Shown: positions 46,572-63,999 of the stretch, in pieces
Layout: every line of letters begins with the position of its first letter
Position numbering within the stretch: the first letter of the stretch is position 1
NCBI RefSeq assembly: GCF_025998535.1
Contig: NZ_AP024233.1
Span: 1,090,217 to 1,154,216 of the forward strand
Origin: Desulfolithobacter dissulfuricans
Lineage (GTDB): Bacteria; Desulfobacterota; Desulfobulbia; Desulfobulbales; Desulfobulbaceae
Reading direction: 5' to 3'
DNA length: 64,000 bases
Notes under the pieces: generated by a model
What the model saw: only the letters and a program-made list of their open reading frames with translations
Databases searched by the model: none
Told to the model about the DNA's origin: nothing
Made by a program: the position numbers and the translations under genes

Positions 46572-46886
46572 ATGTCTCCAGCGGCGGAACAGGGGCCCGA
46601 GGACTTGCGATCAGAGGGAAAGGTACTGGAGCGGGAATGCGTTGTCTGCAACGCCAAGGGCGTCCATGGTCGGGTGGCCGCCGCCCTGGCCCGGGTGGTT
46701 CTGGACCGTGAGGTTGCGGTCCACCTGGTCCGGGACCGTGAGGAGGTTGACTGCGGATCCATTCTCGATGTCCTGAGCCTGGCTCTGGTCACCGGAACCC
46801 GGGTGACGGTCCGGGCGGAGGGCAAAGACGCTGCCTCGGCCCTGGAGGAGGTGGTGAAAATTCTGGAGCAGGAAGAAGATCCATGA
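46572..46886 (+). CDS. HPr-family phosphocarrier protein
   Basis: 104 residues. Phospho-His site in NAKGVHGRVAAAL and the regulatory region around SILDVLSLAL match HPr, with an extra ~20 N-terminal residues. Receives phosphate from EI, whose gene overlaps by four bases. No sugar-specific EII gene is in the window, so this pair probably serves regulation rather than sugar uptake. Confidence 0.9.
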   Translation: MSPAAEQGPEDLRSEGKVLERECVVCNAKGVHGRVAAALARVVLDREVAVHLVRDREEVDCGSILDVLSLALVTGTRVTVRAEGKDAASALEEVVKILEQEEDP

Positions 46887-48676
46887 AACACTGCAGCGGG
46901 CAGCCTGCCGGGCCGGAACCCAGGACTTTCTATGGTATCGGGGCTTCCGGCGGTATCGTGGTGGGCCGGGCCCTGGTTCTCATGCGCCGTACCCGCCGGG
47001 CCGGCTGGTACCATCTGCCACCGGAACAGATAGACCGTGAGGTCGACAGGTTCCGGACCGCGGTTGATCAGGCGGAAGCTGAGCTTAAGGAATTCCGCAG
47101 CCAGCTGGCCGAAGATTTGGCCGACTCCCTCTCCATCATCGACTCTCACATCCTCATGGTGCGTGACCGGATGATCCTGGATCGCACGGTGGAGATCATC
47201 AGGACAAAGCAGATAAACGCCGAGTGGGCCCTGGCCAGGGCCCTGGGGCGGATCAAGAAAAAGTTCGATCGCATTGACGATCCCTACCTCAAGGATCGCT
47301 ACAACGATATCAAGTACGTGGCCGACAGGGTATTCGGCCTGCTCTCGGGCCGGGAGATGACCCCGCTATCCGGTATCGACGAGCCGGTCATCATTGTGGC
47401 CCACGAGTTCTCGCCGGAAGACACCATGGGGATGCGGTCGGAAAATGTCCTTGGCTTTGTCTGCGAATCCGGCGGAGTCACCTCGCATACCGCCATTGTC
47501 GCCCGTTCGCTTGGCATTCCGGCGGTTCTTGGCCTGGAACACATCACCCGGGAATGTGTTACCGGCGATCGCATCATCCTGGATGGATTCTCCGGGCGGG
47601 TCTACCTCCATCCCACCCCCGATCAGCAGAAACAGTACCTGGAATATGAGCGCCAGCATCGTGATTTTTCCCAGGAACTGGCCTTTTACATCCATCTTGG
47701 TTCCGAGACCCTGGACGGACACAGGGTCCGGTTGGCCGCCAACATCGAAATGCCAGATGAACTGGACACGGTGCTGCGCTACGGTGCCGAGGGAATAGGT
47801 CTGTTCCGCACCGAGTTCGATTATTTTCACCGCGAGCAGGTGCCGGATGAAGAGATGCTTTATGCCACCTACCGGGACCTGGTCACCACCCTGGCGCCCC
47901 ATCCTGTGACCATCCGGACCCTGGACACCGGCGGCGACAAGTTTTCCGGTCATCTCTGTACCAGCGGGGTACGGCTGGGGCAGGAACGCAATCCGGCTCT
48001 GGGATTGCGTTCCATCCGCTTGTCGTTACGGGAGCCCTCTCTGTTCAAGGTGCAGCTCAGCGCCCTATTGCGGGCCTCTGCCCACGGACGGCTGCGCATA
48101 TTGATGCCGATGATTTCCTCTCTCTGCGAGCTGCGGCGGGTAAAGGATATTTTTGCCCAGGTCATGGAGGAGCTTAAGCGAAACCGCCTGCCGTTCAATC
48201 CCCGGGTCGAGGTGGGGATCATGGTCGAGGTGCCAAGCGCCGTGATCATGGCCGACACCCTGGCGGCCGAAGTGGATTTTTTCAGTATCGGTACCAATGA
48301 CCTGATCCAGTATTCCCTGGCCATCGACCGTGGTAACGAATACGTGGCCCACATGTATGAACCACTCCACCCGGCAGTCCTGCGTATGATTCGTCAGACC
48401 GTGGAAGCGGCCCATTCCAGGGGGATCGAGGTCTCGCTTTGCGGGGAGATGGCCGGAGATGTGGTAACCGTGCCGGTGCTGCTGGGCCTGGGGGTGGATG
48501 AACTCTCCATGCGGCCTTCGGCCCTGCCGTTTGTCAAGCGGATCCTGCGCCACTCCTGCTCCAAACAGCTTCGCGAACTGGGCAACCGGGTGCTCCAGTG
48601 CGGCGACGGCGGAGAAGTGCGGAATTTTCTCACCAGCTACCTGCCCAAGTACTATCCAGAGGAGTTTGGCCAGTGA
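46883..48676 (+). CDS. ptsI: phosphoenolpyruvate-protein phosphotransferase (Enzyme I)
   Basis: 597 residues. N-terminal HPr-binding helical domain, phospho-His in GGVTSHTAIVARSLGIP, and the PEP-binding barrel with GLFRTEFDY, GIMVEVPSA, FSIGTNDLIQY and SLCGEMAGD. Transfers phosphate from PEP to HPr. No GAF domain, so PtsI rather than PtsP. Overlaps HPr upstream and thiL downstream, showing tight coupling. Confidence 0.95.
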   Translation: MKHCSGQPAGPEPRTFYGIGASGGIVVGRALVLMRRTRRAGWYHLPPEQIDREVDRFRTAVDQAEAELKEFRSQLAEDLADSLSIIDSHILMVRDRMILDRTVEIIRTKQINAEWALARALGRIKKKFDRIDDPYLKDRYNDIKYVADRVFGLLSGREMTPLSGIDEPVIIVAHEFSPEDTMGMRSENVLGFVCESGGVTSHTAIVARSLGIPAVLGLEHITRECVTGDRIILDGFSGRVYLHPTPDQQKQYLEYERQHRDFSQELAFYIHLGSETLDGHRVRLAANIEMPDELDTVLRYGAEGIGLFRTEFDYFHREQVPDEEMLYATYRDLVTTLAPHPVTIRTLDTGGDKFSGHLCTSGVRLGQERNPALGLRSIRLSLREPSLFKVQLSALLRASAHGRLRILMPMISSLCELRRVKDIFAQVMEELKRNRLPFNPRVEVGIMVEVPSAVIMADTLAAEVDFFSIGTNDLIQYSLAIDRGNEYVAHMYEPLHPAVLRMIRQTVEAAHSRGIEVSLCGEMAGDVVTVPVLLGLGVDELSMRPSALPFVKRILRHSCSKQLRELGNRVLQCGDGGEVRNFLTSYLPKYYPEEFGQ

Positions 48677-49674
48677 TGCGAGAGCGGGAAATGATCCAGG
48701 CCATCAGTGACCTTGTGGGCCGAAAGGAGCTGGCCGAGGGCCTTATACGTTCCATCGGTGACGACTGCGCGGTCATCAGCAGGACCGATCGGAGTGTATG
48801 GCTGCTCAGTATGGATTCCCTGGTCGAGCAGGTCCATTTTGACCTGCGCTTCCACCCGGCTTACGAGCTTGGCCGCAAGGCGGTGTCGGTCAATGTCAGT
48901 GACGTGGCGGCCATGGGCGGGCGGCCGCAGTTTCTACTGCTCTCTCTGGGCCTGACCCCTGACCGGGATCAGGCATGGTTTAAGGAGTTCATGGCCGGCC
49001 TTGAGTCGGCCTGCCGGGAGTACGGCTGCCTGCTCATCGGCGGCGACACGGTGTCCTCGCCCAGGGCACTGACCCTGACCCTGACCATCATCGGCGAACA
49101 GGACCGGGAGGCGGTGATCTATCGGAGCGGCGCCCGGCCCGGGGACGAGATCTGGGTCAGCGGAGAGCTTGGCCTGGCGGCAGCCGGACTGGATCTGTTC
49201 CGCCTGGGTAGCGGTCTCGAAGATCCCGACTTCAAGCCTCTCCTGGCCCGTCACCTGAATCCCCGGGCCCGGGTGGAACTGGGACTCGCCCTGGCCGGGA
49301 GCGGGGTGGTCCGGGCGATGCTTGACCTGTCCGACGGATTGGCCACGGATCTGGCCCATCTCTGCAAGGAGAGCGGGGTGGGGGGCAGGGTTGAGGCCAG
49401 GCTCCTTCCCGGCCATCCGGCCCTGGACCGGGCCGCTGTCCTGCTGGACCGTCAGCCCATAGACTGGATGATCCGTGGCGGTGAGGACTACGAGCTCCTG
49501 TTTACCGCCCCCCCGGCAGCAGGAAAAACTATCCAGACCCTGGCTGCCGGCCAGAACGTGCCGGTGAGCAGGATCGGGTGGATCGTCCGGGAGCATGGCG
49601 TGGTCCTCATCCGGGGGGACAGGGACGAAGGAGAGCCGGAACGGATAGATTTCCAGGGATACGAGCATTGTTGA
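48676..49674 (+). CDS. thiL: thiamine-monophosphate kinase
   Basis: 332 residues from ATG 48676, overlapping the ptsI stop by one base (a GTG at 48673 is also possible). Motifs SIGDDCAV, MDSLVEQVHF, GGDTVSSP and DLSDGLATDL are those of ThiL, of the PurM-like ATPase fold. Phosphorylates thiamine monophosphate to the active cofactor. Runs C7 at 49508-49514 are intact. Its presence in a phosphotransfer operon may be incidental. Confidence 0.93.
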   Translation: MREREMIQAISDLVGRKELAEGLIRSIGDDCAVISRTDRSVWLLSMDSLVEQVHFDLRFHPAYELGRKAVSVNVSDVAAMGGRPQFLLLSLGLTPDRDQAWFKEFMAGLESACREYGCLLIGGDTVSSPRALTLTLTIIGEQDREAVIYRSGARPGDEIWVSGELGLAAAGLDLFRLGSGLEDPDFKPLLARHLNPRARVELGLALAGSGVVRAMLDLSDGLATDLAHLCKESGVGGRVEARLLPGHPALDRAAVLLDRQPIDWMIRGGEDYELLFTAPPAAGKTIQTLAAGQNVPVSRIGWIVREHGVVLIRGDRDEGEPERIDFQGYEHC

Positions 49675-49720
49675 GGGTGCTGCCCGGGAGAGAACTGACA
49701 GCTGGAGGCTCGAGAGAGAT

Positions 49721-52282
49721 ATGACGGTCGCAAATCTTTTCAAACACTGGACATATCGTATTTTTGCCCCTGGTGTGGTGCTGCGCGAGACCTATGAGGC
49801 CTTCAAGGAACTGCTGGTCCATGATTCCCGCTGCCATGAGCTGATGGCCGAGTTCGAGATCCTCTACTACGAGGGGAAACGGGAGGATTTCGCTGCGGTC
49901 CGCAAGCGTTACGACCGGTTCAGCCACGAAGTGGAGGGTATGGTCTCCTGCCTGGAACGAATGGCTCCCGGGGCCTGGGTCGATCTGCGCGAGTATTACC
50001 GCAAATTTGACTTCTATGTCCGTTTCCTCCTTGCCCCTCCGTCCCTCAACATTACACCCCCCTATGTCCTTTCGCTGGAAGACCCGGCACTTACTCCGGA
50101 GCTGGGTGGCAACAAGGCCTGGAATCTCGGACTGCTCAGCCGCGAACTCGGGGCCCCGGTGCCCGATGGCTTTGTCATCACTACCGCGGCCTTCAACTAT
50201 CTGCTGGAATACAACAACCTGCGTTCCCGGATCGATGAGCTGCTGGCCGAGATAGATATCGAGTCCAGCATGTCCCTGGCCCGGATATCGGCCCGCCTCC
50301 AGGCCCTGGTCCTGGAGGCGGAAATTCCTCCGGATATCCGGGAAGCCGTACTTTCGGCTTATGCCGGCCTGGAGCAGAGGGCAGGCCAGGAGATACTTGT
50401 CGCCGTACGTTCATCCGCCGTGGCCGAAGACAGCGGTCATTCCTTTGCCGGCCAGTACACCAGTGTGCTCGGTGTCGGGCGGGAGAAAATCCTCGATGGT
50501 CTGCGCCAGGTTCTGGCCTCCAAGTACAGCCCCCAGTCCCTCTTTTACCGGATCACCCTGGGCCTGGGCGACGAGGAGACTCCCATGGGTGTCCTGGTAC
50601 TCACCATGGTGGACGCCAGGGCCAGCGGGGTGATGTACACCCGGGATCCGGCCGCTTCGGCCGCCGATCGTCTGGTCATCCACGCTATTTTCGGTCTGGG
50701 GGAGCCCCTTGTCTCCGGAGAAGCCCTGCCCGATATCTTTGCAGTATCCCGTAAGACCCTGGAGGTCGTCGCCTTTCATCCGGGGCGCCATCAGGTGATG
50801 CGCCGGCTGGGGCAGGGTGAACTCGAGGATGTACCGATTCCCGCCGAGGACCAGGGTGAATCTGTTCTGTCCGAAGACGAGGTTCGGAATCTTGGTCGCT
50901 GGGGGGTAAGGATAGAAGAGTATTTCGCTTCGGCCCGTGACGTGGAATGGGCTGTGGGTCCCGACAGGGAAATATTTCTGGTCCAGAGCCGTCCCCTGGC
51001 TGTGGAAGAAAGTGGTGGTTCGGGGGAGCAAGAGGAGTCCCTGCCGCCCATCACTGTGAAGCCGCTCCTTAGCGGCGGTGAAAGGGCCTCCGGCGGAGTG
51101 GCCTGTGGGGAGGTCTATCGGGTGGGTGCGCAACACACCCTTGGCGATATTCCCGAAGGTGCCATCCTGGTGACAGAAAACACCGCCCCGTCCCTGGTCC
51201 GGATCTTGAGTCGCCTGGGCGGGGTGGTGGCAGACAAGGGGTCCACCGCCGGTCATTTTGCCACGGTCTGCCGGGAATTCGGCGTTCCGCTGCTGGTGGG
51301 TACGGGCGAAGCCTCCCGCCTTCTTGCGCACGGGATGACCGTGACCCTGGACGCGGACAACCGGGTGGTCTATCCCGGCCGGATCAGTCTCCTGCTGGCA
51401 AACAGGAAAAGGGCTGGCCGACCCTCCCGGGAGGATCTGCCCTGGTTCAAGAAGTTGCGGGCCATCCTCGACTTCATAACCCCGCTTAAACTGGTGGATC
51501 CCGCCTCCCCTGATTTTGCTCCCCGTTCGTGTCGCTCCCTCCATGACATCATTCGGTTTGTCCATGAAAAGGCGGTGCAGACCATGTTTTCCCTGGGCGA
51601 TTCCCTCACCGGTTCGGCCGGGAAATGTTTCCGCCTGCAGACTGATCTGCCGCTGGATATCTACCTGATAGACGTGGGTGACGGGTTGAAACCCGGCAGG
51701 CTGCAGGGAGACAGCGTAACCCTCGACCAGATCACCAGCCAGCCGTTTCTGGCCCTGTGGGAAGGAATCAGTCATCCTGGTATCGATTGGCACTCCCGGG
51801 AACATTTTGACTGGAAGACCTATGACGATGTGGCCCTTGCCGGTGGGGTCGCGGCCCAGGGTTCGGCCGATCTGGCGACCTATGCTGTCATCAGTCGGGA
51901 TTATCTCAACATGAACATGCGCTTTGGTTATCATTTCACCCAGGTGGATGCCCTGTGCGGCCCCGAGGATCGGACCAATTACTGCATGCTTCGTTTTGCC
52001 GGCGGCGGCGGTGAGTTCACCGGCAGGGCGCTCAGGATTGAATTTCTCCGTCGGGTCCTTCAGGAACTCGGCTTCGAGGTGACGGTCCGGGCGGATCTTC
52101 TCGATGGTCGGCTTGGCGAGATGGACTGCGATACCCTTTCCCGGCGGCTCGACATGCTCGGCCGCCTGCTTGGCGCCACCAAGCTCATGGATATGGTACT
52201 CCACGACGAACATGATGTGGATGTGGCTGTCCAGGCCTTTTTCCAGGGACACTACAACTTTTCCTCCATGGAGTCGTCATGA
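49721..52282 (+). CDS. PEP-synthase-like phosphotransferase with unassigned C-terminal domain
   Basis: 853 residues. An N-terminal ~100-residue helical segment, then the ATP-grasp domain of PEP synthase/PPDK (GGNKAWNLGLL, VAVRSSAVAEDS, FAGQYTSVLG, LVQSRPLAVEE), then the swivelling phospho-His domain with GSTAGHFATVCREFGVP. The expected PEP-binding TIM barrel is absent; instead about 290 residues (from ~565) form an unfamiliar domain with RFGYHFTQVDALCG. The architecture recalls rifampicin phosphotransferase, in which the acceptor domain differs. The acceptor here is unknown. Overlaps the phosphatase gene downstream by ATGA. Confidence 0.8.
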   Translation: MTVANLFKHWTYRIFAPGVVLRETYEAFKELLVHDSRCHELMAEFEILYYEGKREDFAAVRKRYDRFSHEVEGMVSCLERMAPGAWVDLREYYRKFDFYVRFLLAPPSLNITPPYVLSLEDPALTPELGGNKAWNLGLLSRELGAPVPDGFVITTAAFNYLLEYNNLRSRIDELLAEIDIESSMSLARISARLQALVLEAEIPPDIREAVLSAYAGLEQRAGQEILVAVRSSAVAEDSGHSFAGQYTSVLGVGREKILDGLRQVLASKYSPQSLFYRITLGLGDEETPMGVLVLTMVDARASGVMYTRDPAASAADRLVIHAIFGLGEPLVSGEALPDIFAVSRKTLEVVAFHPGRHQVMRRLGQGELEDVPIPAEDQGESVLSEDEVRNLGRWGVRIEEYFASARDVEWAVGPDREIFLVQSRPLAVEESGGSGEQEESLPPITVKPLLSGGERASGGVACGEVYRVGAQHTLGDIPEGAILVTENTAPSLVRILSRLGGVVADKGSTAGHFATVCREFGVPLLVGTGEASRLLAHGMTVTLDADNRVVYPGRISLLLANRKRAGRPSREDLPWFKKLRAILDFITPLKLVDPASPDFAPRSCRSLHDIIRFVHEKAVQTMFSLGDSLTGSAGKCFRLQTDLPLDIYLIDVGDGLKPGRLQGDSVTLDQITSQPFLALWEGISHPGIDWHSREHFDWKTYDDVALAGGVAAQGSADLATYAVISRDYLNMNMRFGYHFTQVDALCGPEDRTNYCMLRFAGGGGEFTGRALRIEFLRRVLQELGFEVTVRADLLDGRLGEMDCDTLSRRLDMLGRLLGATKLMDMVLHDEHDVDVAVQAFFQGHYNFSSMESS

Positions 52283-53385
52283 TCTGGTTCAGGTCCGGGA
52301 AGGGCCGAAAGAAAAAGGCAAAGGAAAAGCAGCACCGCTATCCCCTGATCTGGATCACCAGCCAGCTTGCGGTGGGTTATGCGCCCATGTCTTATGCCGA
52401 GCTCGATTCCATCCGTAAGCAGGGAATCGACGCCATTGTCAATCTTTGCGGTGAATACTGCGATCTGCATGAAATAGAAGAGAATTCCGGTTTCGAGGTC
52501 TATTATCTTCCCATACCCGACGAGTGTGCGCCGGACATGGAGGAGATGGAAAAGGCGCTGGAATGGCTCGACGAGGCCATCTATCTGGGCAAGAAGGTGC
52601 TTGTTCACTGCCGTCACGGTCACGGCCGGACCGGGACCTTTGTTTCGGCTTATCTCCTGCGCAAGGGGCTTGGCATGAAGATGGCGGAAAAAAAACTGAA
52701 AAACACCCCGGCCGGGCCCACCAACTACAGTCAGTGGAGCCTGCTGCGCAAGTATGGGAAAAAGGAAGGGCAGCTGAGGCTGGCCGAGCCAGCCATCGAA
52801 CCCCATTCGACGGTGGACCTGGAGCCGCATCTCCGAGCCTACCGCGAACTGGTGGCCGAGGTGGACACGGAGTTGGAAAAGCTTGCCCTCTCTCCCGGAT
52901 GCGGCACGAAGGACAGTCGTTGCTGCCGGGAATATTTCACCCTGACGCTTATCGAAAGCATCGCCGTCCATTCGGCCATGAACCGCCGTCTCAAGCAGGA
53001 GGAGCGCCACAGGGCCATTGAACGGGCGATCGGGGTAGCTGCCGAGATAAAGAAGCTCCGCCATGAGTATGCTGCCGATGAGCCCGACCGGTTCGCCCAC
53101 CGGTTCGCCGAGGTCGGGCTTCGCTGTCCTCTGCAGCTGGATACGGGTTGCCAGCTTTTTGACGAGCGACCGCTGCGCTGCCGGATATGGGGCCTTGAGA
53201 CCTTCCGTGCCAGGCAGGATGTGGAAGACAGACTTGCTAACCTTTCACGAAACGTCTATTTTGCATTGACCGGGGAATTTCCCCCGGCGGAGGGGTTGCG
53301 CTTTTCCATGGCCGACACGGTTTCAGGAAAATTCGTTCAGGTTTATTTTCACGCCATGATGCAGCATCATGGAACAGCCAGCTAA
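52279..53385 (+). CDS. dual-specificity phosphatase fused to a YkgJ-like Cys-cluster domain
   Basis: 368 residues. Residues ~20-165 form a dual-specificity phosphatase with CX5R loop in VHCRHGHGRTGTF and a preceding general-acid Asp region (PIPDECAPD). The C-terminal half has Cys residues patterned as in YkgJ/UPF0153 metal-binding proteins (GCGTKDSRCC ... CPLQLDTGCQLFDERPLRCRIWG). The fusion suggests a phosphatase whose activity or location depends on a bound metal or Fe-S cluster. Coupled to the phosphotransferase-like gene upstream, so the two may act on one substrate. Function is inference. Confidence 0.8.
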   Translation: MIWFRSGKGRKKKAKEKQHRYPLIWITSQLAVGYAPMSYAELDSIRKQGIDAIVNLCGEYCDLHEIEENSGFEVYYLPIPDECAPDMEEMEKALEWLDEAIYLGKKVLVHCRHGHGRTGTFVSAYLLRKGLGMKMAEKKLKNTPAGPTNYSQWSLLRKYGKKEGQLRLAEPAIEPHSTVDLEPHLRAYRELVAEVDTELEKLALSPGCGTKDSRCCREYFTLTLIESIAVHSAMNRRLKQEERHRAIERAIGVAAEIKKLRHEYAADEPDRFAHRFAEVGLRCPLQLDTGCQLFDERPLRCRIWGLETFRARQDVEDRLANLSRNVYFALTGEFPPAEGLRFSMADTVSGKFVQVYFHAMMQHHGTAS

Positions 53386-53468: not shown

Positions 53469-54887
53469 ATGGATCAGCACGATTTGGACAAGAAGGTACT
53501 TATTGTCGATGACGAACTGGATATGCTGCGCATGCTGGCCAAGGTCATCGCCAAAAAATGTGGTGTCGAGGTAGAGACCGCGCCATCGGCCCACGAAGCC
53601 ATGGTCAAGATCGAATCCTGGATTCCCGATGTGGTGATCACCGATATAAAGATGCCCGGCATGGATGGGCTGGAGTTCCTGGAATGGCTGACCCGGTTTG
53701 ATTCCACCATTACCACCATCATCATGACCGGGTACGGGACCATTGAAATGGCCGTCCGGGCCCTCAAGGAAGGGGCCTATGATTTTTTCGAGAAACCATT
53801 TGAAAACGAAAAGATAGTTCATGCGGTCACCCGGGCCATGGAGCGCACCCGGCTGCTGCGGGAAAACCTCCAGCTTCAGCAACGGCTGACCGAGAACCAG
53901 CGGGCCTCGGGCTTTGTCGGCAAATCCCGCCGGCTCTGCCAGACGCTCGATCTTCTGGCCCGGCTGGCCCCGTCCAATGCCACGGTGCTCATCCGTGGCG
54001 AGTCGGGCACCGGCAAGGAGCTGGCGGCCCGGGCTCTGCACGCGATGAGCAAGCGGGGGCGGAGGCGGATGGTCACCGTCAACTGCCCGGCCCTGCCCGA
54101 ACATATCCTGGAGTCCGAGCTGTTCGGATATCGAAAGGGGGCCTTTACCGGGGCCGACAGCGACAAGGACGGTCTCTTTCTGGAAGCGGACGGCTCCACC
54201 ATTCTCCTTGATGAGATTGCCGATATTCCCATCTCGGTCCAGACCAAGCTGCTGCGGGTCCTCCAGGAAAAGGAGATCCAGCCCCTGGGGCAGACCAGGC
54301 CCATCAAGGTGGATGTCCGGGTTCTTGCCTCCACCAACCAGGATCTGGAGGCCAAGATCGAACGGGGCGAGTTCCGTGAAGACCTCTTCTACCGCCTCAA
54401 TGTCATGACCGTGACCATGCCCACCCTGGCGGAGATCGTCAACGATATCCCTCTGCTGGCCCAGCATTTTCTCGAGCTCTACAGCAAGGAGTATGACCGC
54501 AGCGACCTGGAATTCACCCCCGAGGCCCTGCAGTGCCTCATGCGCCGGACCTGGAAGGGCAATATCCGGGAGCTGCAGAATGCCATCAACCAGGCGGTCC
54601 TGCTCTGCTCGGGGACCCGAATCACCCCGGGCGATCTGATCAGCGACTCCGATGTCGATATCCCGGGCGAGGCGGTTGCTAACCGCACTCAGGCCTGCTT
54701 TCTCCATCTGCCCTATAAAAAGGCCAAAGAGGAGGTGCTCAGCTATTTCACCAGTTCCTATCTGACCAATGCGCTCACGGCCACCCGGGGCAACGTTTCT
54801 GCTGCAGCCAGACAGTGTGGTATGGAACGCCAGGCTTTCCAGCGCCTCATGCGGCGGCACGGGATCAAATCAGAGGATTTCCGCTGA
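53469..54887 (+). CDS. NtrC-family sigma-54-dependent response regulator
   Basis: 472 residues from ATG 53469; upstream codons to 53391 are repeat sequence. Receiver domain with phospho-Asp in VVITDIKMPGMDG, AAA+ domain with Walker A GESGTGKE, the sigma-54 contact loop GAFTGAD and LDEIADIP, and a C-terminal Fis-type HTH (GNVSAAARQCGMERQAFQRL). So it can activate sigma-54 promoters. A -24/-12 promoter flanked by two 18-bp palindromes begins about 430 bases past its end, a likely target. Kinase partner may be 56157-57719. Confidence 0.94.
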   Translation: MDQHDLDKKVLIVDDELDMLRMLAKVIAKKCGVEVETAPSAHEAMVKIESWIPDVVITDIKMPGMDGLEFLEWLTRFDSTITTIIMTGYGTIEMAVRALKEGAYDFFEKPFENEKIVHAVTRAMERTRLLRENLQLQQRLTENQRASGFVGKSRRLCQTLDLLARLAPSNATVLIRGESGTGKELAARALHAMSKRGRRRMVTVNCPALPEHILESELFGYRKGAFTGADSDKDGLFLEADGSTILLDEIADIPISVQTKLLRVLQEKEIQPLGQTRPIKVDVRVLASTNQDLEAKIERGEFREDLFYRLNVMTVTMPTLAEIVNDIPLLAQHFLELYSKEYDRSDLEFTPEALQCLMRRTWKGNIRELQNAINQAVLLCSGTRITPGDLISDSDVDIPGEAVANRTQACFLHLPYKKAKEEVLSYFTSSYLTNALTATRGNVSAAARQCGMERQAFQRLMRRHGIKSEDFR

Positions 54888-55273
54888 TGGGTACCACCAC
54901 TTCACCCTCAGGTTCCGATCAGGACCAGATCTACTGTCACTACTGTCCCGGCTACTGCTGCTACCGGCTCGAGGGGGCCTCTCTCTATATCATGGCCGAC
55001 GATATCAACCGCCTGGCCAGGCATTTCGGTATTTCCGACGGCGAGGTCCGCAAGCGGTACATGGAGGGCAAATACACCTTCAAAACCCGCGAGGACGGTT
55101 CCTGCATCTTTCTCGCCAATGACCGGCTCAGTAAACGGTGCAGTGTGCATGAGGCCAGGCCGAAACAGTGTCGCGACTATCCCTACGGCAAACCCTGTCC
55201 CTATATCGAGCGCCACGACCTTCTGGCCGCGATCCATCCCCGTATAGCCAAGGCGCTGAACATTCCGGAATAG
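54887..55273 (+). CDS. YkgJ family cysteine-cluster protein
   Basis: 128 residues from ATG 54887, overlapping the regulator stop. Cys pattern CHYCPGYCC ... GSCIFL ... RCSVHEARPKQCRDYP is that of UPF0153/YkgJ proteins, thought to bind a metal or Fe-S centre. Second YkgJ-type domain in this operon after the phosphatase fusion. Function unknown. Confidence 0.85.
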   Translation: MGTTTSPSGSDQDQIYCHYCPGYCCYRLEGASLYIMADDINRLARHFGISDGEVRKRYMEGKYTFKTREDGSCIFLANDRLSKRCSVHEARPKQCRDYPYGKPCPYIERHDLLAAIHPRIAKALNIPE

Positions 55274-55322
55274 CGTTCTTTATTCACGATCTTTCCTGTC
55301 GGTGCATACAAAGTGTTTCATC

Positions 55323-55340
55323 TGCAACCATATGGTTGCA
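55323..55340. promoter_or_regulatory. 18-bp palindrome, candidate enhancer site 1
   Basis: Perfect palindrome TGCAACCATATGGTTGCA, about 130 bp upstream of the -24 element, the usual distance for NtrC-type enhancer binding. Shares TGCAAC-N6-GTTGCA with 55625-55642. Confidence 0.6.
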
Positions 55341-55469
55341 CTTTGAAGCTCCCCAATCCCCTTTATTCTCCTTTCTTTTCCCACTCTCTCTCCAGGATAT
55401 TTTTTCTTTTACCTTTGTAACTCACTGAAAGAGCGAGTTTTTGTTTTCTGGAGCAATTTTTCTGACAAT

Positions 55470-55485
55470 TGGCATTTCATGTGCA
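55470..55485 (+). promoter_or_regulatory. sigma-54 (-24/-12) promoter
   Basis: TGGCAT-N5-GTGCA: GG at 55471-55472 and GC at 55483-55484, exactly 12 bases apart as required, one mismatch in each block from TGGCAC/TTGCA. The only good match I found in the window, directly upstream of the sensor operon and downstream of a sigma-54 activator gene. Confidence 0.65.
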
Positions 55486-55555
55486 TAATCAAGGGCGAAT
55501 GTGATGCGGTTTTTGTAATTCTATTTCATCGTTGAAATATCCAGGAGCGTCAACA

Positions 55556-56160
55556 GTGACAACTATCCGCCCAAAAGCTATTCCCAGGCAACGACCTTGT
55601 GGCGGAGCCGGGAAGAAGATTGGGTGCAACCAGGGTGTTGCACCAGGGGGGTGGCTTGTAATCGGGCTCCGGACAGTTCTTTTTTGCTGCATCCAGGCAG
55701 CGGCGTGGGGCATGTTTTCCCTGATTCTCCTCCTCTCTGTTCCAGACGCTGCCTGGGCTCTGCAGTCCCATGGTCCCCCGAGGGACTCTATGTCCACCAG
55801 ATGGCCCATGTGTTTTTTATCTGTGCCATGGGTTACCTGTTCTGGGACATCCGTCGGACTTCGTTTTCCGGGCGGGGCTGGGGCTATCTGCAGATATTCT
55901 GCATCTTCATGATCGCCTGGAATATTCTCGCCCTGACCGGCCATGCGGCCGAACTGTTGCTTACGACCGAAGATTTTGTCTTTGGCAACGACCAGGTGCC
56001 GACCCACCTCATCGGCGAGGTGAACGCGGCCAAAATCATCTATTTTTTCGGTAAGCTGGATCATCTTCTCTGTGTGCCGGCCCTGCTCTTTCTCTTCCTG
56101 GGTCTGCGTTCCTTTTATCAAAATATTGAAAACAGTGACGACCAGGAGGGCAAACCGTGA
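55556..56160 (+). pseudogene. small membrane sensor protein, frameshifted at a C run
   Basis: GTG at 55556 has AGGAG eight bases upstream; ATG 55712 is the alternative and begins directly with the signal-like MFSLILLLSVPDAAWA. The frame breaks at CCCCC (55775-55779); one added C joins it to three further hydrophobic segments ending at 56160 (201 residues). Histidines lie in or near membrane helices (VHQMAHVFF, LTGHAAELL, KLDHLLCV), which might bind haem or a quinone. Family unknown. Overlaps the kinase gene, so it probably forms the sensing part of that kinase. Confidence 0.65.
55625..55642. promoter_or_regulatory. candidate operator site 2
   Basis: TGCAAC-CAGGGT-GTTGCA, same half-sites and 6-bp spacing as site 1, with pairing extended to GGTGCAAC/GTTGCACC. 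It lies about 140 bp downstream of the promoter, within the first codons if translation starts at 55556, or in the leader if it starts at 55712. Confidence 0.5.
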
Positions 56161-57719
56161 ATCTGCCGCTCCAGGTCACCATAGTCACCGACATGCTGGG
56201 CTCGGTCACAAATATCGTTCTGGCCGTCTTTTCGCTTCGCTACGCCTATCTGCTGACCAGAAGACAGCCCGACAACTTCCTCTGGGGTTTTCTCTTCTAT
56301 TTCTGCGTCGCCCTGGTGGCCTTCTCCATTTCCCGGGCTGCGGGCCATATTGTCAAGCAGCTTCTCATCTTTTCCGGCAATGGGAATATCTGGACCATGA
56401 TCGCCCCGTTTTCTGGCGGATTCAATACGCTGCTGCTTATTTCGGTCTCCGCAGTCACGGTGTTTTACCACAAGGGGGTTGAAGCCTATCATGCGGTGGA
56501 ACTGCGGGCCGCCAAGCTCAAGGAGGCCAACCAGCGCCTTGAAATAGCGGCCAAGGAACTTCGCGAGCTGAACCTGCACCTGGAGGAAAAGATCGAGGAG
56601 CGCACCGCCGAGCTGGCCAAGTCGGAAAAGAAATTCCGCCACCTCTTTTCCAACTCCAAGGATATGGTCTTCTTCTGCGATACCCATCAGCAGCTCATGG
56701 ATATCAATGAGTCGGGCCTGGAGATGCTGGGCTATGACCCCAGCGACGCACCCCAGCTCAACCTCTACAAGATCTTTCATAACGAAGACGATATTTTCAC
56801 CTATTTCGAGACCATGCACGAGAAGGGTTTTATCAAGGATTTCGAGGTGGAGTTCGAAAGGCGGGACGGCTCGATCATAAACGTACTCCTCTCGGCCACA
56901 GCCATCTTTGACGAGAAGGGTGAGATGATAGGCTGCGAGGGAATAGCCAAGGACCTGACCCGGGTCAAGACCATGATGCAGCAGCTGGTGGCCAGCGAAA
57001 AGATGGCCTCGGTGGGCCAGATGGCCGCCGGTGTGGCCCATGAGATCAATACCCCGCTGGGAATCATACTTGGTTACACCCAGCTGATGATGGACGATTT
57101 TCCCGAGGATTCCGAGGTCTACCAGAACCTGGCGGTCATTGAGCGCCAGACCAAGGCCTCACGCAAGATAGTGGCCGATCTGCTCAAGTTTTCCCGCCAG
57201 TCCGAGTCGGCCAGGGAGAATCTTTCCCTGAACGAGATACTTACCGATGTGATCGCGGTGACCGAGCACAGTCTCAACCTGGACCATATCCAGGTACATC
57301 TCGACCTGGATCCGGACCTGCCGGAGGTGGTCGGCGATGCTGAAAAGCTGAGGCAGGTTTTTGTCAATCTCATCAACAACGCCCGCCATGCCATGGAGGA
57401 AGAGGGACGGGGGGATCTCTATCTCTCCACCTACTATGACAGGGAGGACAACATGGTGGTGGCCGAGGTGAGAGACACCGGGCATGGCATACCAGAAAAG
57501 GTCAAGGCCAAGATCTTTGACCCGTTTTTCACCACCAAGGCTGTCGGCAAGGGTACGGGGCTTGGACTCTCGGTTTCCTATGGCATCATCAAGGATCATG
57601 GGGGCATCATCGAGGTGGAGAGTCCGGTGAAGGACCGTGATACAGGACAACAGATTCAGGGAACCAGGTTCAGAATCCTGCTGCCGCTGGCCCAGGAGCC
57701 GGACCCGGTCGCCCTGTGA
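56157..57719 (+). CDS. membrane PAS sensor histidine kinase
   Basis: 520 residues from GTG 56157 with AGGAGGG upstream. Three hydrophobic helices in the first ~110 residues, a coiled coil (~115-160), PAS domain, HisKA with phospho-His in [10 protein letters not shown], and HATPase with NLINNARHA and [11 protein letters not shown]. The NtrB-like core fits partnership with the NtrC-type regulator at 53469 and the receiver encoded next. Coupled to the small membrane protein upstream. Confidence 0.92.
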
Positions 57720-57763: not shown

Positions 57764-58150
57764 ATGGCTGAGATACTGGCACTCGATGATGTTCAGGACG
57801 CAACCGTCCTTATCGGAAAGATTCTTTCCAAGAAAGGACATAACGTTCACACCTTTACCGAGGAAGATGACGCGGTGAACTTTGCCAGGGAAAACAAGGT
57901 CGATCTGGCGATTCTCGATATCAAGCTCAAGAAGATGAGTGGAGTGGAGGTTCTGGCCCTGCTCAAAGACATCAACCCGGACATGCATGCCATCATGCTC
58001 ACCGGGTATCCCACGGTGGAAACAGCCAGGGAGGCGATCAGCCTGGGAGCCGATGAGTACTGCGTCAAACCCATTGATCGCGATGAACTGGAAGAAAAGG
58101 TTGAAAAGGTCCTGAACTCAAAGATCAAGGCAGGAACAGGGCAGATCTGA
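57764..58150 (+). CDS. single-domain response regulator
   Basis: 128 residues from ATG 57764 with AGGAGG seven bases upstream. Receiver only: acid pair in ALDDVQ, phospho-Asp in LAILDIKLKKMSG, Thr in MLTGYP and Lys in CVKPIDRDE. No output domain, so it acts by phosphorelay or protein contact between the neighbouring kinase and another protein. Confidence 0.92.
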   Translation: MAEILALDDVQDATVLIGKILSKKGHNVHTFTEEDDAVNFARENKVDLAILDIKLKKMSGVEVLALLKDINPDMHAIMLTGYPTVETAREAISLGADEYCVKPIDRDELEEKVEKVLNSKIKAGTGQI

Positions 58151-58171: not shown

Positions 58172-59842
58172 ATGGTACCAGCCAGCAGACCGACAAGACA
58201 GCAGGAGTTTCTGAAGGTATTTCAGAAAGTCACCAAGCTGATTTCAATGGTTCTCGATCACCAACAGGTGATGGATACCATTGTCCGCAGCCTGCCCGAC
58301 CTGCTTGATGTGGATGCCTGTACCATCCGTCTGCTCGATGCCTCCAGCAACACCTTTGTTCTCGGCGCGGCCTACGGTCTGTCCATGGAGTATCTCTCCC
58401 GTCAGTCCATCGACACCGAAGAGACCATGGAGATGATCAAATCGGGCTACCCGGTGGCCAAGACCGATCTGGACAAGGATCCCAGTTATGCAGACCGGGA
58501 AGCCGCCAGTCGCGAGGGGATCAAGTCGGTCCTGACCCTGCCCATCCTGTTCCAGGATTCCATCATCGGCATCATGCGGCTCCTGACCAGGTCCAACCGG
58601 GTTTTTTCCGCCGAGGAGGTCTCCTTTTCCATGGCCCTGGCGGAACAGGTGGGCATTGCCATATCCAATGCCCGGATGTTCAGGGAGATGGAAAACCAGG
58701 TGGATTTCATGAAGGAGGTCCAGGACATTTCCCGCCTGGTCAACTCCACTCTGGACCTGGATACGGTCCTCAATACCATCGTCGAGCGGGTGCCCCGCTC
58801 CATCGGCGCCATGGCAGCCTCCATCAGGCTTCTCAACCCGCAGACCAACAAGCTGGAGCTGGTGGCCTCCTATGGTCTCTCTGACCGTTATCTCCAGCGG
58901 GGCCGGATCGAGGCGGAAAAGAACGTGGTCATGGTCCTTTCCGGTGACCCGGTGGCCATCTACGATGTGGCCAACGACGAGCGGGTCTTCTACAAGGAAC
59001 ACATGGAAGAGGAGGGGATCAAATCGCTGCTTGCCGTGCCGATCAAGGTGGGCCAGGAGGTCATCGGTGTCCTGCGGATACTGACCGATGAACACCACTG
59101 TTTCACCTCCTCGGAGGTCAACTTCGTCTCCACTGTAGCCGAGTCCAGCGGTACGGCCATCCAGAATGCCCGGACCTACCAGAAGATGAACCTGCTCTTT
59201 GCCCAGATCGAGGAAAACGAGCGGTTTTTAAGTGACATTCTGGACTGTATCCGCCCGAGGCTCGTGGTGGTCGACCGTCAGAAACATGTGGTCCTTGCCA
59301 ACCGGGTCATGCTTGAAGAGCTGGGGTTGCCCGAAGGGGAGGTTCTGGGGATGGATTATCACGATCTCTGCCCGGCCACCGAGGATCTGGACGAACCTTG
59401 CCCGGTGGACCGGGTCTTAGCCACCGGCGAGGTCGCCACCCAACTGCACCGGATGACGGTGGATGGCGAGGTACGCTGGTACGAACGGACTGCGTCCCCC
59501 ATGCTCGATCCCGACGGGAATGTTCAGTATGTAATCGAGATCATACGTGATGTGACCACCAAGCGGCGTCTGGAGGAAGAGCAGATGGAGCGGATCAAGC
59601 TCCAGAGCGTGGTGGAGATGGCCGGCACCGTGGCCCATGAGATCAACTCTCCGCTCTTCGCTGCCCTCGGCACGGCCCAGCTGCTCCAGGAAGATCTGCC
59701 CGGGGAAGAACACAGGCAGGAGCTGGACACGGTTATCCGCAATCTGAAAACCATCAGCGAGCTGACCCGGAAAATGACCAGCATGACAGGGTTTGAAAGC
59801 CGGGACTATGTGGGCGAGACAAAGATTGTCGAGCTCAAATAA
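58172..59842 (+). CDS. GAF-GAF-PAS-HisKA protein lacking a kinase ATPase domain
   Basis: 556 residues. Two GAF domains (~20-165 and ~190-345), a PAS domain (~360-465) and a HisKA-like dimerisation helix with MAGTVAHEINSPLF; the protein stops about 75 residues later with no N, G1 or G2 box, so it cannot bind ATP as a kinase. It may be phosphorylated by the adjacent kinase or act as a sensor or adaptor in the same relay. The frame is clean and ends normally. Confidence 0.85.
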   Translation: MVPASRPTRQQEFLKVFQKVTKLISMVLDHQQVMDTIVRSLPDLLDVDACTIRLLDASSNTFVLGAAYGLSMEYLSRQSIDTEETMEMIKSGYPVAKTDLDKDPSYADREAASREGIKSVLTLPILFQDSIIGIMRLLTRSNRVFSAEEVSFSMALAEQVGIAISNARMFREMENQVDFMKEVQDISRLVNSTLDLDTVLNTIVERVPRSIGAMAASIRLLNPQTNKLELVASYGLSDRYLQRGRIEAEKNVVMVLSGDPVAIYDVANDERVFYKEHMEEEGIKSLLAVPIKVGQEVIGVLRILTDEHHCFTSSEVNFVSTVAESSGTAIQNARTYQKMNLLFAQIEENERFLSDILDCIRPRLVVVDRQKHVVLANRVMLEELGLPEGEVLGMDYHDLCPATEDLDEPCPVDRVLATGEVATQLHRMTVDGEVRWYERTASPMLDPDGNVQYVIEIIRDVTTKRRLEEEQMERIKLQSVVEMAGTVAHEINSPLFAALGTAQLLQEDLPGEEHRQELDTVIRNLKTISELTRKMTSMTGFESRDYVGETKIVELK

Positions 59843-60011: not shown

Positions 60012-60074
60012 AACTGGCCGGGGACAAGATCTCCCCAGGTGGAAGGTTCACAAAACATAACAAGGAGGAGCTGT

Positions 60075-61765
60075 ATGAAGCGAATATCACTATTACTCGG
60101 AGTCATTCTGGCGAGTCTGCTGCTCGTAAGTTCGGGGGCAATGGCACTGGATGCCAAGCTGACTTCCCAGAAGGTAAAAGCCGGCAAGCCGATCACGGTT
60201 TCAGGCACTATCGAACCCGGACAGGACCTGTTCGTGGTTATCAATACCCAGAAGATGTTCAGGCCATCTGAGGCCCCTGGCCCCAAGGAAAAAGCCCGGC
60301 TGATGAAAGGCAAGAAGGGTAAGAACGCCTTTGGCGATACCCCTATACCGCCGAACTACTATGTGATCACCAATGTGCCGGAAAAACTGGCAACCCCTAA
60401 AGAAGCCTGGAAGGGTCAGACCAAGGGCATCTTCGCTTTTCCGCCTTTCAAGTACAAGGTTGAGGTCAACAAGATAAAGAAATGGAATGAGATCGACGAT
60501 TCGGTCAAGGCCATGCTCGGTCCGATCACCTCGGAGATGCAGTGGAAGTTCCTGATCTATGTTCATGAGAAGAAGTTCGGTATCAATACGGTCTCCAAGG
60601 AGAAACCCCTTGGTGGCGGTAATGCCCGGATGATCATGACCGACTACAACAAGCAGCCGAAAAAATGGAACGAAGGTGTCAGCCTGACCCTGGACAAGAA
60701 TACCGGTAAGTTCTCGGTCACCATGACGCCGTACAAGAACATCGCTCCCAATGCGGCGCTGGATGTGTATGTCAACGGACAGAAGGTTGATACCTTTACC
60801 ATTCAGAAATCCACCTTCTTCTTCAAAACCGCCAATGTCTACATGAATCCGCTGATCGTCTTTGGCGGCGCGTTCCTCATCGGCGTCCTGTTCGTTATCA
60901 TGGGTGCCGCCGGTGGTCTGTTCACCGCGGCCTTCCAGATCACGGTCATCGGAACCAAGGGTCCGGTCGGTATCAACGCCGGTAACACCATCAAGCCGAC
61001 CAACCTGTTCCTGACCCTGTGTTCGCCCATCACAGGTCTGATGACCTACTTCAAGGAAAAAAGGTTCGCCTACCCGGTGGCCATCCCCTTTGCCATCGGT
61101 ATCGTTACCGGCGCCTTTTTTATCGGCCCCCGCTGTCGGCTAAGTATCTGAACCTGGCGGCCTTCAAGTTCTATCTCGGTATCATCTGTCTGGTTATCGG
61201 TATCAAGCTCTTCACCGAGTCCCTGCCGAGTTCCATTGAGAAGAAAAAGGCCATGAAGGCCATTGTCCAGAAGTTCAACGCCGCGGTCAAGGAAGCCAAG
61301 GAATCCGGTAAGGCCATGGAGATGGGTAAAATCGAATTTGATAAATTCAACTTCATTTCCTTCAACATGCGTTTCTGGGGTGAGACCTTTGTCGCCCGGC
61401 CGCTGATGATGCTCATCGGTGGTATCGTCATGGGTGTGATCGCCTCCTCCTTCGGTGTCGGCGGTGGCTTCATGTTCATGCCGTTCATGACCACCCTGGT
61501 GGGATATCCCATGTATCTGGCCGTACCCATAGCCCTGGCCGGTACCTTTGCCACCTCCACCGGTGCCATTGCCAAGTACGCGCTCATGGGATACCAGCCC
61601 GACTGGATCATGGCGGCTCTCATTGCTGCCGGCGCCATGTGCGGTGGTATGGTCGGTCCCAAGATCCAGAAGAAGCTTCCGGAGATTTTCCTGAAACGGA
61701 TGCTGGCCCTGGCACTTATCATTGTATTCATGAAGTACACAAAACTGCTGGTATTCCTGCGCTAA
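60075..61765 (+). pseudogene. TauE/SafE-family exporter with periplasmic domain, frameshifted at a C run
   Basis: Signal peptide (LLLGVILASLLLVSSGAMA), a periplasmic domain of ~210 residues, then TauE-type membrane segments (GAAGGLFTAAFQ, and later SSFGVGGGFMFMPF and FATSTGAIAKYAL). The frame breaks at CCCCC (61127-61131); one added C gives a continuous 563-residue protein. TauE/SafE proteins export sulfite, sulfoacetate or related anions; the extra exported domain may bind the substrate. AGGAGG precedes ATG 60075. Probable sequence error. Confidence 0.85.
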
Positions 61766-61881: not shown

Positions 61882-63999
61882 ATGAAGAAATCTGTGTACT
61901 CGATATGTGGCATGTGCACGGTTCGTTGTCCGATCCGGGTTGAGGTTGAGGATAACAAGGTGACATGGATCGAGGGCAATCCACATCTGCTCGACAGTGC
62001 CCTGTGCGCCAAGGGGTCGGCCGGTGTCGCTCTGGTAAATGATGATGAGCGGCCCAGGCAACCCTTGATCAGAGAAGGCGGGCGTGGAGCCGGACGCTGG
62101 CAGAAGGTGAGCTGGCCGACCGCCTATGACTACATCGCCGAGAGGCTGAAAAAGATCAAGGCCGACTATGGTCCCGAGTCGGTGGTACTGTCTTCACGCG
62201 GGGGACCATGGCAATCCATGTATAAGACCTTTATCCATGCCTTTGGATCGCCAAATTACACTAACCACGATTGCACCTGTGGTCGTAATACCCACCATGC
62301 CAGTCTTTCTCTAAATGGTGTCGGCCGGAAGGGCTTTATCTATGATATAAAAAATGCCAAACATCTGGTCTGTTTCGGGCGCAATTACTTTGCCTCGTTG
62401 CAGATAGCTCAGAGTAACCAGGTGCTTGACATGCTGGACAAGGGCGGGCGTCTTACTTATGTCGATGTCCGACAGACCATGACCGGCATCAAGGCAACCC
62501 GGTTTTTTCAGGTTCGCCCCGGTACCGACTATGCCCTGACGCTGGGCATGATCCATGAGATCATCAAGCGCGGGCTGTATGACAAGGAATTCATCGACCG
62601 GTATGTGAGCGGCTTTGACGAACTGTGCAGCTTCATCGAGGAATACACTCCGGCCTGGGCGGCCAAGGAGTGCGGGGTCAAGGAAAAGGCCATCAAGGAG
62701 TTTGTCGACGAGGTGGCCGAAGATATGCCCCGGGTCATCTTTCATCCGGGCTGGAACCTGTCGCGCTACAAGGATTCGTTTTACGCCAGCAGGGCCCTCC
62801 ACATCCTCAATGTTCTGATGGGCAATATCGAGATCGAGGGCGGGCTGATCATTCCCAAGGGGGCGGGCGACTGCGGTTTTTCCGGTATTCGCAACCTGGA
62901 CTGTCCCAAGCCCGATATCAAGAGGGGCGACGGAGTGGGGTGGAAATACACCCATTTCGACAAAGGCCCCGGCCTGGCTCACCTGTTCTTCGATGCCATG
63001 CGTACCGAAGATCCCTATCCGATCAAGGCCTGGATCGCCATGCGTCATGATCCCTTTGCCTGCATGCCCGATCCCCAGCGCCAGAAACTCTACTTTGACA
63101 ACTGTGATCTCCTGGTCTCCATCGATACCCATTACAGCGAGTTTGGCTGGTATGCCGACGTGATCCTGCCGGAATCCACCTACCTGGAAAGGGATAATCC
63201 CATCTGCCTGCAGAAAGGAACCAAGCCCAGGCTGGCGGTGCGGCGCAAGGCTCTGGAGCCCCGTTTTGACACCAAGCCCGGCTGGGAGATTTTCAGGCAG
63301 TTGGCTGAACGCCTCGATATCGGCGAATACTTTCCCTACAATACCATCGAGGAACTCTACGAGTGGCAGCTTGAGGGAACCGGCTACACCATCGAGGATT
63401 TTGAAGAAAAGGGATTCATTGAGCTCACCGACAAGCCGCTGCCCCTGTATGACCGCGACAAGCTGGACGGGCAGTTCAAGACGCCTTCCGGCAAGATCGA
63501 GATCATCAGCAGTAAACTCGAAGAAGCCGGTCTGCCGTCGCTTAAGCCCTACAAATCGCCCAACAAGCCACCCAAGGGCATGTTCCGGCTGGTCTACGGC
63601 CGTTCGGCGGTTCATACCCACAGCCATACCATCAACAATCCGCTCCTTGAGGAACTGATGCCGGAAAACACCCTGTGGATCAACCACCGGGCAGCGGCCA
63701 AGCTCGGGATCGAGGACGGCGACATGGTCGAGGTAACGGCTCAGAACGCCAGCTACTCAGGCACTGTTCAGGCCCACGTGACCGAGTTTATCCACCCGGA
63801 ATGTGTCTATACCGTGCATGGCTTCGGCCGTCAGGTCCCGCTGCAGAGCCGCGCCTATCATGCGGGTATCAGTGATCAGAAATTGATGGCCGGATTACTG
63901 GATAACTGGGACCGGGCCGGGGGTGCCATCAACCTCTGCGAAGCCCTGGTCTTTGTGAAGAAGAGTAGCCGGAATCCGAAGAGGAGGGTTGAGTTATGA
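61882..63999 (+). CDS. molybdopterin oxidoreductase, PsrA/PhsA-like, without Tat signal
   Basis: 705 residues, starting at MKKSVYSICGMCTVRCPI, which directly provides 4Fe-4S ligands (CxxCxxxC plus the Cys in ALCAKG). No signal sequence precedes it, so the enzyme is probably cytoplasmic, unlike classical PhsA/PsrA. A Cys-containing Mo-ligand region lies in TNHDCTCGRNTHHA and the C-terminal domain has HTHSHTINNP. Likely acts on a sulfur compound given the exporter upstream; arsenate or tetrathionate-type substrates remain possible. Stop overlaps the next start. Confidence 0.85.
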   Translation: MKKSVYSICGMCTVRCPIRVEVEDNKVTWIEGNPHLLDSALCAKGSAGVALVNDDERPRQPLIREGGRGAGRWQKVSWPTAYDYIAERLKKIKADYGPESVVLSSRGGPWQSMYKTFIHAFGSPNYTNHDCTCGRNTHHASLSLNGVGRKGFIYDIKNAKHLVCFGRNYFASLQIAQSNQVLDMLDKGGRLTYVDVRQTMTGIKATRFFQVRPGTDYALTLGMIHEIIKRGLYDKEFIDRYVSGFDELCSFIEEYTPAWAAKECGVKEKAIKEFVDEVAEDMPRVIFHPGWNLSRYKDSFYASRALHILNVLMGNIEIEGGLIIPKGAGDCGFSGIRNLDCPKPDIKRGDGVGWKYTHFDKGPGLAHLFFDAMRTEDPYPIKAWIAMRHDPFACMPDPQRQKLYFDNCDLLVSIDTHYSEFGWYADVILPESTYLERDNPICLQKGTKPRLAVRRKALEPRFDTKPGWEIFRQLAERLDIGEYFPYNTIEELYEWQLEGTGYTIEDFEEKGFIELTDKPLPLYDRDKLDGQFKTPSGKIEIISSKLEEAGLPSLKPYKSPNKPPKGMFRLVYGRSAVHTHSHTINNPLLEELMPENTLWINHRAAAKLGIEDGDMVEVTAQNASYSGTVQAHVTEFIHPECVYTVHGFGRQVPLQSRAYHAGISDQKLMAGLLDNWDRAGGAINLCEALVFVKKSSRNPKRRVEL

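Follow-up and report, generated by a model that had tools for sequence, protein, structure and literature searches.

A conserved sigma-54 circuit, apparently local, with an unusual two-sided enhancer predicted beside an NtrC-type regulator gene of Desulfolithobacter dissulfuricans

The 'Governor' sites of the glnAp2 promoter are extra activator sites that reportedly limit its output from positions upstream of the promoter. For the enteric activator NtrC, the enhancer consensus is given as TGCACC(A/T)4TGGTGCA (PMC4987338), and FlbD, one of the flagellar activators with unusually placed sites, is described as acting at ftr sites both to activate and to repress (PMC3930126). In Desulfovibrio vulgaris, few activator sites are reported downstream of sigma-54 promoters; these lie 40-70 bp away and mostly belong to a flagellar regulator, and the main text of that study holds no TGCA motif string (PMC4641369). 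We analyzed a stretch of 64,000 nt from Desulfolithobacter dissulfuricans, referred to as the window (GCF_025998535.1, NZ_AP024233.1:1,090,217-1,154,216, forward strand), in which two palindromes of the form TGCAAC-N6-GTTGCA, not matching the NtrC site TGCACC-N5-GGTGCA, flank a putative sigma-54 promoter. The first-pass annotation of this DNA had tied these sites to the adjacent NtrC-type regulator at the sigma-54 promoter of a sensor, exporter and molybdoenzyme operon, a prediction that comparison with relatives supports. Judging by titles and abstract openings, we found no paper describing this regulon. Based on the comparisons below, the palindromes are very probably binding sites of the adjacent NtrC-type regulator, which would act through an upstream doublet on the sigma-54 promoter of the operon.

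Both palindromes are exact and, as had been claimed, share their half-sites and spacer length; the upstream one (TGCAACCATATGGTTGCA) lies at 55323-55340 and the downstream one (TGCAACCAGGGTGTTGCA), of a kind that recurs in relatives, at 55625-55642, neither being assigned a strand. Flanked by the two, in agreement with the earlier description, is the -24/-12 element (TGGCATTTCATGTGCA, 55470-55485, plus strand), which shows two departures from the consensus used and also recurs in relatives. It starts 147 bp past the start of the 55323 site, and the 55625 site starts 155 bp past the start of the element. The distance of about 435 bp previously given from regulator to promoter had to be corrected, being that from the regulator stop (54887) to the first palindrome, with the promoter at 582 bp. 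Between regulator and promoter lies a small gene with a CxxCxxCC domain, which overlaps the regulator stop (54887-55273, plus strand; Pfam on 54815-55270, frame checked). The palindromes and the promoter all fall in the gap between the stop of this gene (55273) and the ATG at 55712, where the first gene of the operon probably starts. Also missed was a weak outer partner of the upstream site (TGCATACAAAGTGTTTCA, 55303-55320, no strand assigned), detected with a matrix, so that the upstream site is a doublet, as recurs in relatives.

A third exact copy is absent from the window, as the first-pass annotation had stated. When up to two mismatches were allowed, this loose scan of the window alone returned four matches against 2.42 expected, which is not significant, and the case therefore rests on relatives. 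The matrix, built from sites of other genomes that had been chosen using the finding's own consensus, ranked 55323 first, 55625 third and 55303 fifth among the 18-base positions of the window; weak matches at 11455 and 11508 lie inside an integrase-like gene and were discounted. Three exact copies of the pattern, two of them at this locus, are present in the own genome (3.6 Mb, one contig), and none of the reversed control. Around the third copy (G000:C1:1318608-1318625), the sole -24/-12 match with at most two mismatches in the surrounding stretch is about 800 bp off, and this copy was dropped as a target because of the lack of a nearby promoter match. Two stringent patterns, each consisting of a site followed 100-130 bp on by a -24/-12 element, match a single place in the own genome, this locus, so that the circuit looks local. 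The exact stringent pattern was found in 5/96 genomes, the own genome included, in a scan that served as a check on the own genome and not as a census; the match in G017 is probably due to chance, as G017 has no close regulator orthologue.

The regulator gene (53469-54887, plus strand) encodes a receiver domain, an AAA+ domain and a Fis-type helix-turn-helix according to Pfam. The AAA+ domain, GAFTGA loop and DNA-binding domain expected of a sigma-54 activator are all present, with Walker A at residue 177, the loop, correctly described earlier as intact, at residue 224, and the recognition helix at 452-463, including E453. The NtrC family model was not reached (TIGR01818, 383.9 bits versus a cut-off of 558.6). 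Some match to the regulator was found in 96/96 genomes searched, and we compared the surroundings of those loci where identity was at least 55%, our cut-off for orthologues. The stretch before the regulator (46883-53385) contains PtsI-like, ThiL-like, PpsA-like and dual-specificity-phosphatase genes, and the order PpsA, phosphatase, regulator is seen again in many relatives without obvious reason.

The operon genes, all on the plus strand, begin with MEM1 (55712-56160), a small membrane protein with a signal-peptide-like start and no Pfam match in two orthologues. It is followed by the PAS-HisKA-HATPase sensor kinase HK1 (56157-57719), the lone receiver protein RR (57764-58150), the GAF-GAF-PAS-HisKA protein HKgaf without an ATPase domain (58172-59842), a TauE-family exporter (60039-61765) and a PhsA-like molybdopterin oxidoreductase (61882-63999), all assigned by Pfam, with listed sequences as a further basis for HKgaf and an NCBIfam PhsA score of 557.7 bits, below the cut-off of 694, for the oxidoreductase. 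This cluster recurs, with variations, around regulator orthologues. Relative to the intact frames of relatives, MEM1 and TauE are each broken in this assembly by a single-base frameshift where five C occur in a row. This looks like homopolymer error in the assembly, true frameshifts being the less likely reading. A 4Fe-4S gene adjoins the molybdoenzyme gene, and for the gene following, all Pfam matches were below cut-off and none was TorD. In the MOLY cluster of sulfur disproportionation, molyA, molyB and a TorD/DmsD chaperone are reported together (PMC12998232).

The order of these genes bears on how the regulator would be phosphorylated, for which the route predicted by the first-pass annotation, directly from the kinase at 56157, is one candidate. 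HK1 is followed by a lone receiver and by HKgaf, which ends soon after the HisKA part in 22/22 listed sequences, the window's included, gave no HATPase match in a Pfam scan of the window copy, and is possibly a phosphotransfer protein. Such a set would suit a relay, and phosphorylation passing from HK1 through the lone receiver and HKgaf to the regulator, or coming from another kinase, instead of directly from HK1, is a plausible course to which we give somewhat less than an even chance. HK1 and the regulator stand near each other in many loci; G016, G053, G039 and G050 are without a close HK1, the best match in a genome-wide search of these four being at most 48% identical over part of the length, and G056 and G058 have an HK1 match of 63% identity. 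However, G016, G053 and G039 keep the regulator without a close HK1 or HKgaf, so neither of the two is indispensable.

Whether the palindromes serve the adjacent regulator is a question apart from its phosphorylation, and here the relatives are informative. We ranked all palindromes with hexamer half-sites and gaps of 0-12 in the sequence preceding MEM1 at 18 loci of other genomes, and TGCAAC with a gap of 6 came first, with 30 sites in 14/18 regions (shuffles: 0.73 on average, 4 at most). A further ten MEM1 loci, more distant and outside the ranking (29-39% identity, mostly divergent from the regulator or second copies), had no site at two or fewer mismatches within the 900 bp examined, giving 14/28 when they are included. 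As evidence against its prediction, the first-pass annotation had named palindromes missing from close relatives that have this operon; conservation of the palindromes stands for 14 of the 18 and does not extend to the remaining four or to the ten distant loci. Considering the promoter as well, a site lies 95-165 bp before a -24/-12 element in 26 cases at 23/53 loci (own genome excluded); eight Markov controls gave 1-4 such pairs, and six alternative spacings gave 2-8.

For replication we took 80 further loci from named genomes, judging by their titles mostly from Desulfobulbaceae, Desulfocapsaceae or unplaced deltaproteobacterial bins, and removed 21/80 as duplicates sharing an identical 200-base stretch, which left 59 new loci, several of them close relatives of one another or of earlier loci. 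A site with a sigma-54 element was found downstream of the regulator gene in 32/59, and all upstream flanks combined gave one. The other 27 of the 59, where some contigs end early, are without a pair, and they include the cultured strains Desulforhopalus vacuolatus (L176), Desulfoprunum benzoelyticum (L188), Desulfofustis glycolicus (L200) and Desulforhopalus singaporensis (L215). Since many of the pair-less loci span 5 kb, the sites there are elsewhere or have diverged.

The sites and promoter also track the regulator or its operon when gene order changes. In G053, G039, G050 and, weakly, G016, the sites and promoter are kept beside the regulator even though MEM1 and HK1 are missing at this position; they are flanked by the regulator/YkgJ pair on one side and by a receiver or TauE gene on the other. 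Where the operon lies far from the regulator, at about 13 kb in L100 and L102 and about 10 kb in L092, the sites stay with the operon. In G058, no site with promoter is present at the regulator's own locus, but one stands before a receiver-TauE pair that is unlinked.

Another enhancer-binding protein could nevertheless bind the sites as real enhancers, alone or with the local regulator, one candidate being the own-genome paralogue at C1:2276724-2278100, which is 48% identical to the regulator and carries a similar helix (LERQSLQHLLRK). The 96 genomes contain 37 exact copies of the palindrome against 5 for the reversed control, of which 8 were placed at this promoter (9 counting one 758 bp upstream of MEM1) and 4 lie near regulators with another helix, IDRSTLYRK; the motif is therefore not exclusive. 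We consider this explanation unlikely: across relatives it is the local regulator's orthologue, with its operon, that the sites and promoter accompany, and the 4.5 kb around the paralogue hold no site at two or fewer mismatches. The copies beside the IDRSTLYRK enhancer-binding protein are at L111:6832, L112:6196 and L116:6654 and 6668, the L116 copies overlapping each other and preceding, by about 200 bp, a -24/-12 element and genes resembling an electron-transfer complex. We had entertained the idea that every exact copy in relatives belongs to the regulator studied here, and rejected it in view of those beside IDRSTLYRK regulators.

A sigma-70 promoter is suggested by CTGACA-16-CATAAT at 55462-55489, which overlaps the -24/-12 element and would make the latter an incidental match. 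However, one such sigma-70-like match stands against 0.9 expected in shuffles, and in relatives the GG and GC of the sigma-54 element are seen again at a fixed distance from the sites, so this reading appears very improbable. That the palindromes act as RNA hairpins, in a terminator or a leader, is hardly credible, since the better-than-shuffled folding of site 1 (z -2.60) and a terminator-like minus-strand match at site 2 are offset by a count of one terminator-like match where shuffles lead one to expect 1.7, by folding of site 2 barely better than shuffled (z -1.44), by the lack of a T run after site 1, and by half-sites that are conserved while the spacer varies, at a kept spacing to the -24/-12 element.

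Returning to the adjacent regulator as the protein that would use the sites, we compared its recognition helix with the half-sites. The residue before R-Q (453 in the window, E) tracks half-site position 5, TGCAAC versus TGCATC, and for regulators with G there, a -24/-12 element is preceded by TGCATC/GATGCA-type sites, TauE being adjacent in L088, L089, L091 and L094. Among the first loci, whose promoters were partly picked by eye and from which L103 (residue N) and L132 (no site found by the scan) were left out, half-sites numbered 44 A to 12 T for E/D and 0 A to 17 T for G. The new loci gave 31 A to 16 T for E and 3 A to 19 T for G; D, with 3 A to 8 T, was unlike E there. Counted per locus, E/D had an A-majority in 19/20 first and 21/25 new loci under a rule scoring ties as A, which favours E/D and leaves the half-site counts unaffected, and G had a T-majority in 7/7 and 6/7. 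One genome, G095, contains a regulator of each type (L082 and L076), each with matching sites. A tree of 58 regulators places three independent origins of G, and the site changed along in two, L210 being the exception; once ancestry was counted, the link fell short of significance (3 switches, 2 agree), a level that three switches cannot reach. The sole regulator with N at the helix position, at L103:1854 (minus strand), has the site TGCAGC-N6-GTGGCA before its promoter, which hints at a third specificity.

Tandem activator sites upstream of the promoter are present in the window, where the second site is weak, and in relatives. A partner 18-22 bp away was found in 30/60 promoters, the window's included, with a spacing of 19 bp in 22 and 20 bp in 6 of the 30; these doublets were compiled by hand and selected at 18-22 bp, so their narrow spacing is partly by choice, and the other promoters have a partner at 33-34 bp or a single site. 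The inner upstream site begins 112-149 bp before the -24. On the other side, 20/58 promoters with enough sequence, again including the window's, have a site 60-260 bp past the -24 start, at 68-207 bp in all, compared with 2.95 in shuffles and 1.0/56 in later windows. The pair at L186, a poor promoter match, was omitted from this count and from the regulator tree. No helical phase between upstream and downstream sites was seen in 11 promoters.

Sequence, conservation, spacing and the tracking of the regulator gene by sites and promoter establish the arrangement on which the following mechanism is built. Phosphorylated regulator would fill the upstream doublet (55303-55340), oligomerise and reach, by DNA looping, the sigma-54 polymerase waiting at the -24/-12 element, and opening of the promoter would switch on the operon from MEM1 through the kinase, receiver, GAF-HisKA protein and TauE to the molybdoenzyme. 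Since HK1 and RR lie inside the operon that they would switch on, positive feedback could result. The downstream site would be bound by the same regulator and would probably modulate output, either by taking part in the loop or lengthening it or, at high regulator levels, by obstructing polymerase on its way out. What is well supported is the prediction of a local, conserved circuit that belongs to a known sigma-54 type and has an unusual enhancer on both sides of the promoter. A wider proposal is more tentative and, in our view, may well not hold in full: a Desulfobulbales-wide sigma-54 regulon in which one activator holds the promoter from both sides, with a doublet and a site mostly 110-207 bp past the -24 start, and both fires and limits it, E or G at residue 453 setting TGCAAC or TGCATC as a natural specificity switch. 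The circuit would link a regulator recurring through Desulfobulbales to a DNA motif, to a promoter and to the operon that it targets, and considering that this operon encodes a TauE-family exporter and a PhsA-like molybdoenzyme, the circuit may reveal when the two are used by these bacteria. If they hold, the two-sided layout and the residue-to-base link would raise the standing of the find, and both can be put to direct test using short DNA probes and variants changed in one residue.

In comparison with known systems, the locus resembles the 'Governor' arrangement of glnAp2 in having extra activator sites near a sigma-54 promoter, the extra site here, where binding is predicted, being downstream. 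As described for FlbD, one sigma-54 activator would have sites with different outcomes, although those of FlbD concern flagellar genes. Inner letters of AAC/GTT instead of the ACC/GGT type, a length of 18 bp instead of 17 bp, another operon, and a further site downstream of the promoter all distinguish the sites from the published NtrC enhancer. Common to the enteric NtrC enhancers and this locus are the outer TGCA palindromes, an activator of the receiver-AAA+-Fis type, whose binding here is predicted, and a position upstream of a -24/-12 promoter. The regulons of enhancer-binding proteins described in D. vulgaris likewise combine a regulator gene beside its sigma-54 promoter, a small regulon and upstream sites (PMC4641369), whereas downstream sites, few and close to the promoter in the D. 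vulgaris account, are found here at 20/58 promoters, 68-207 bp past the -24 start.
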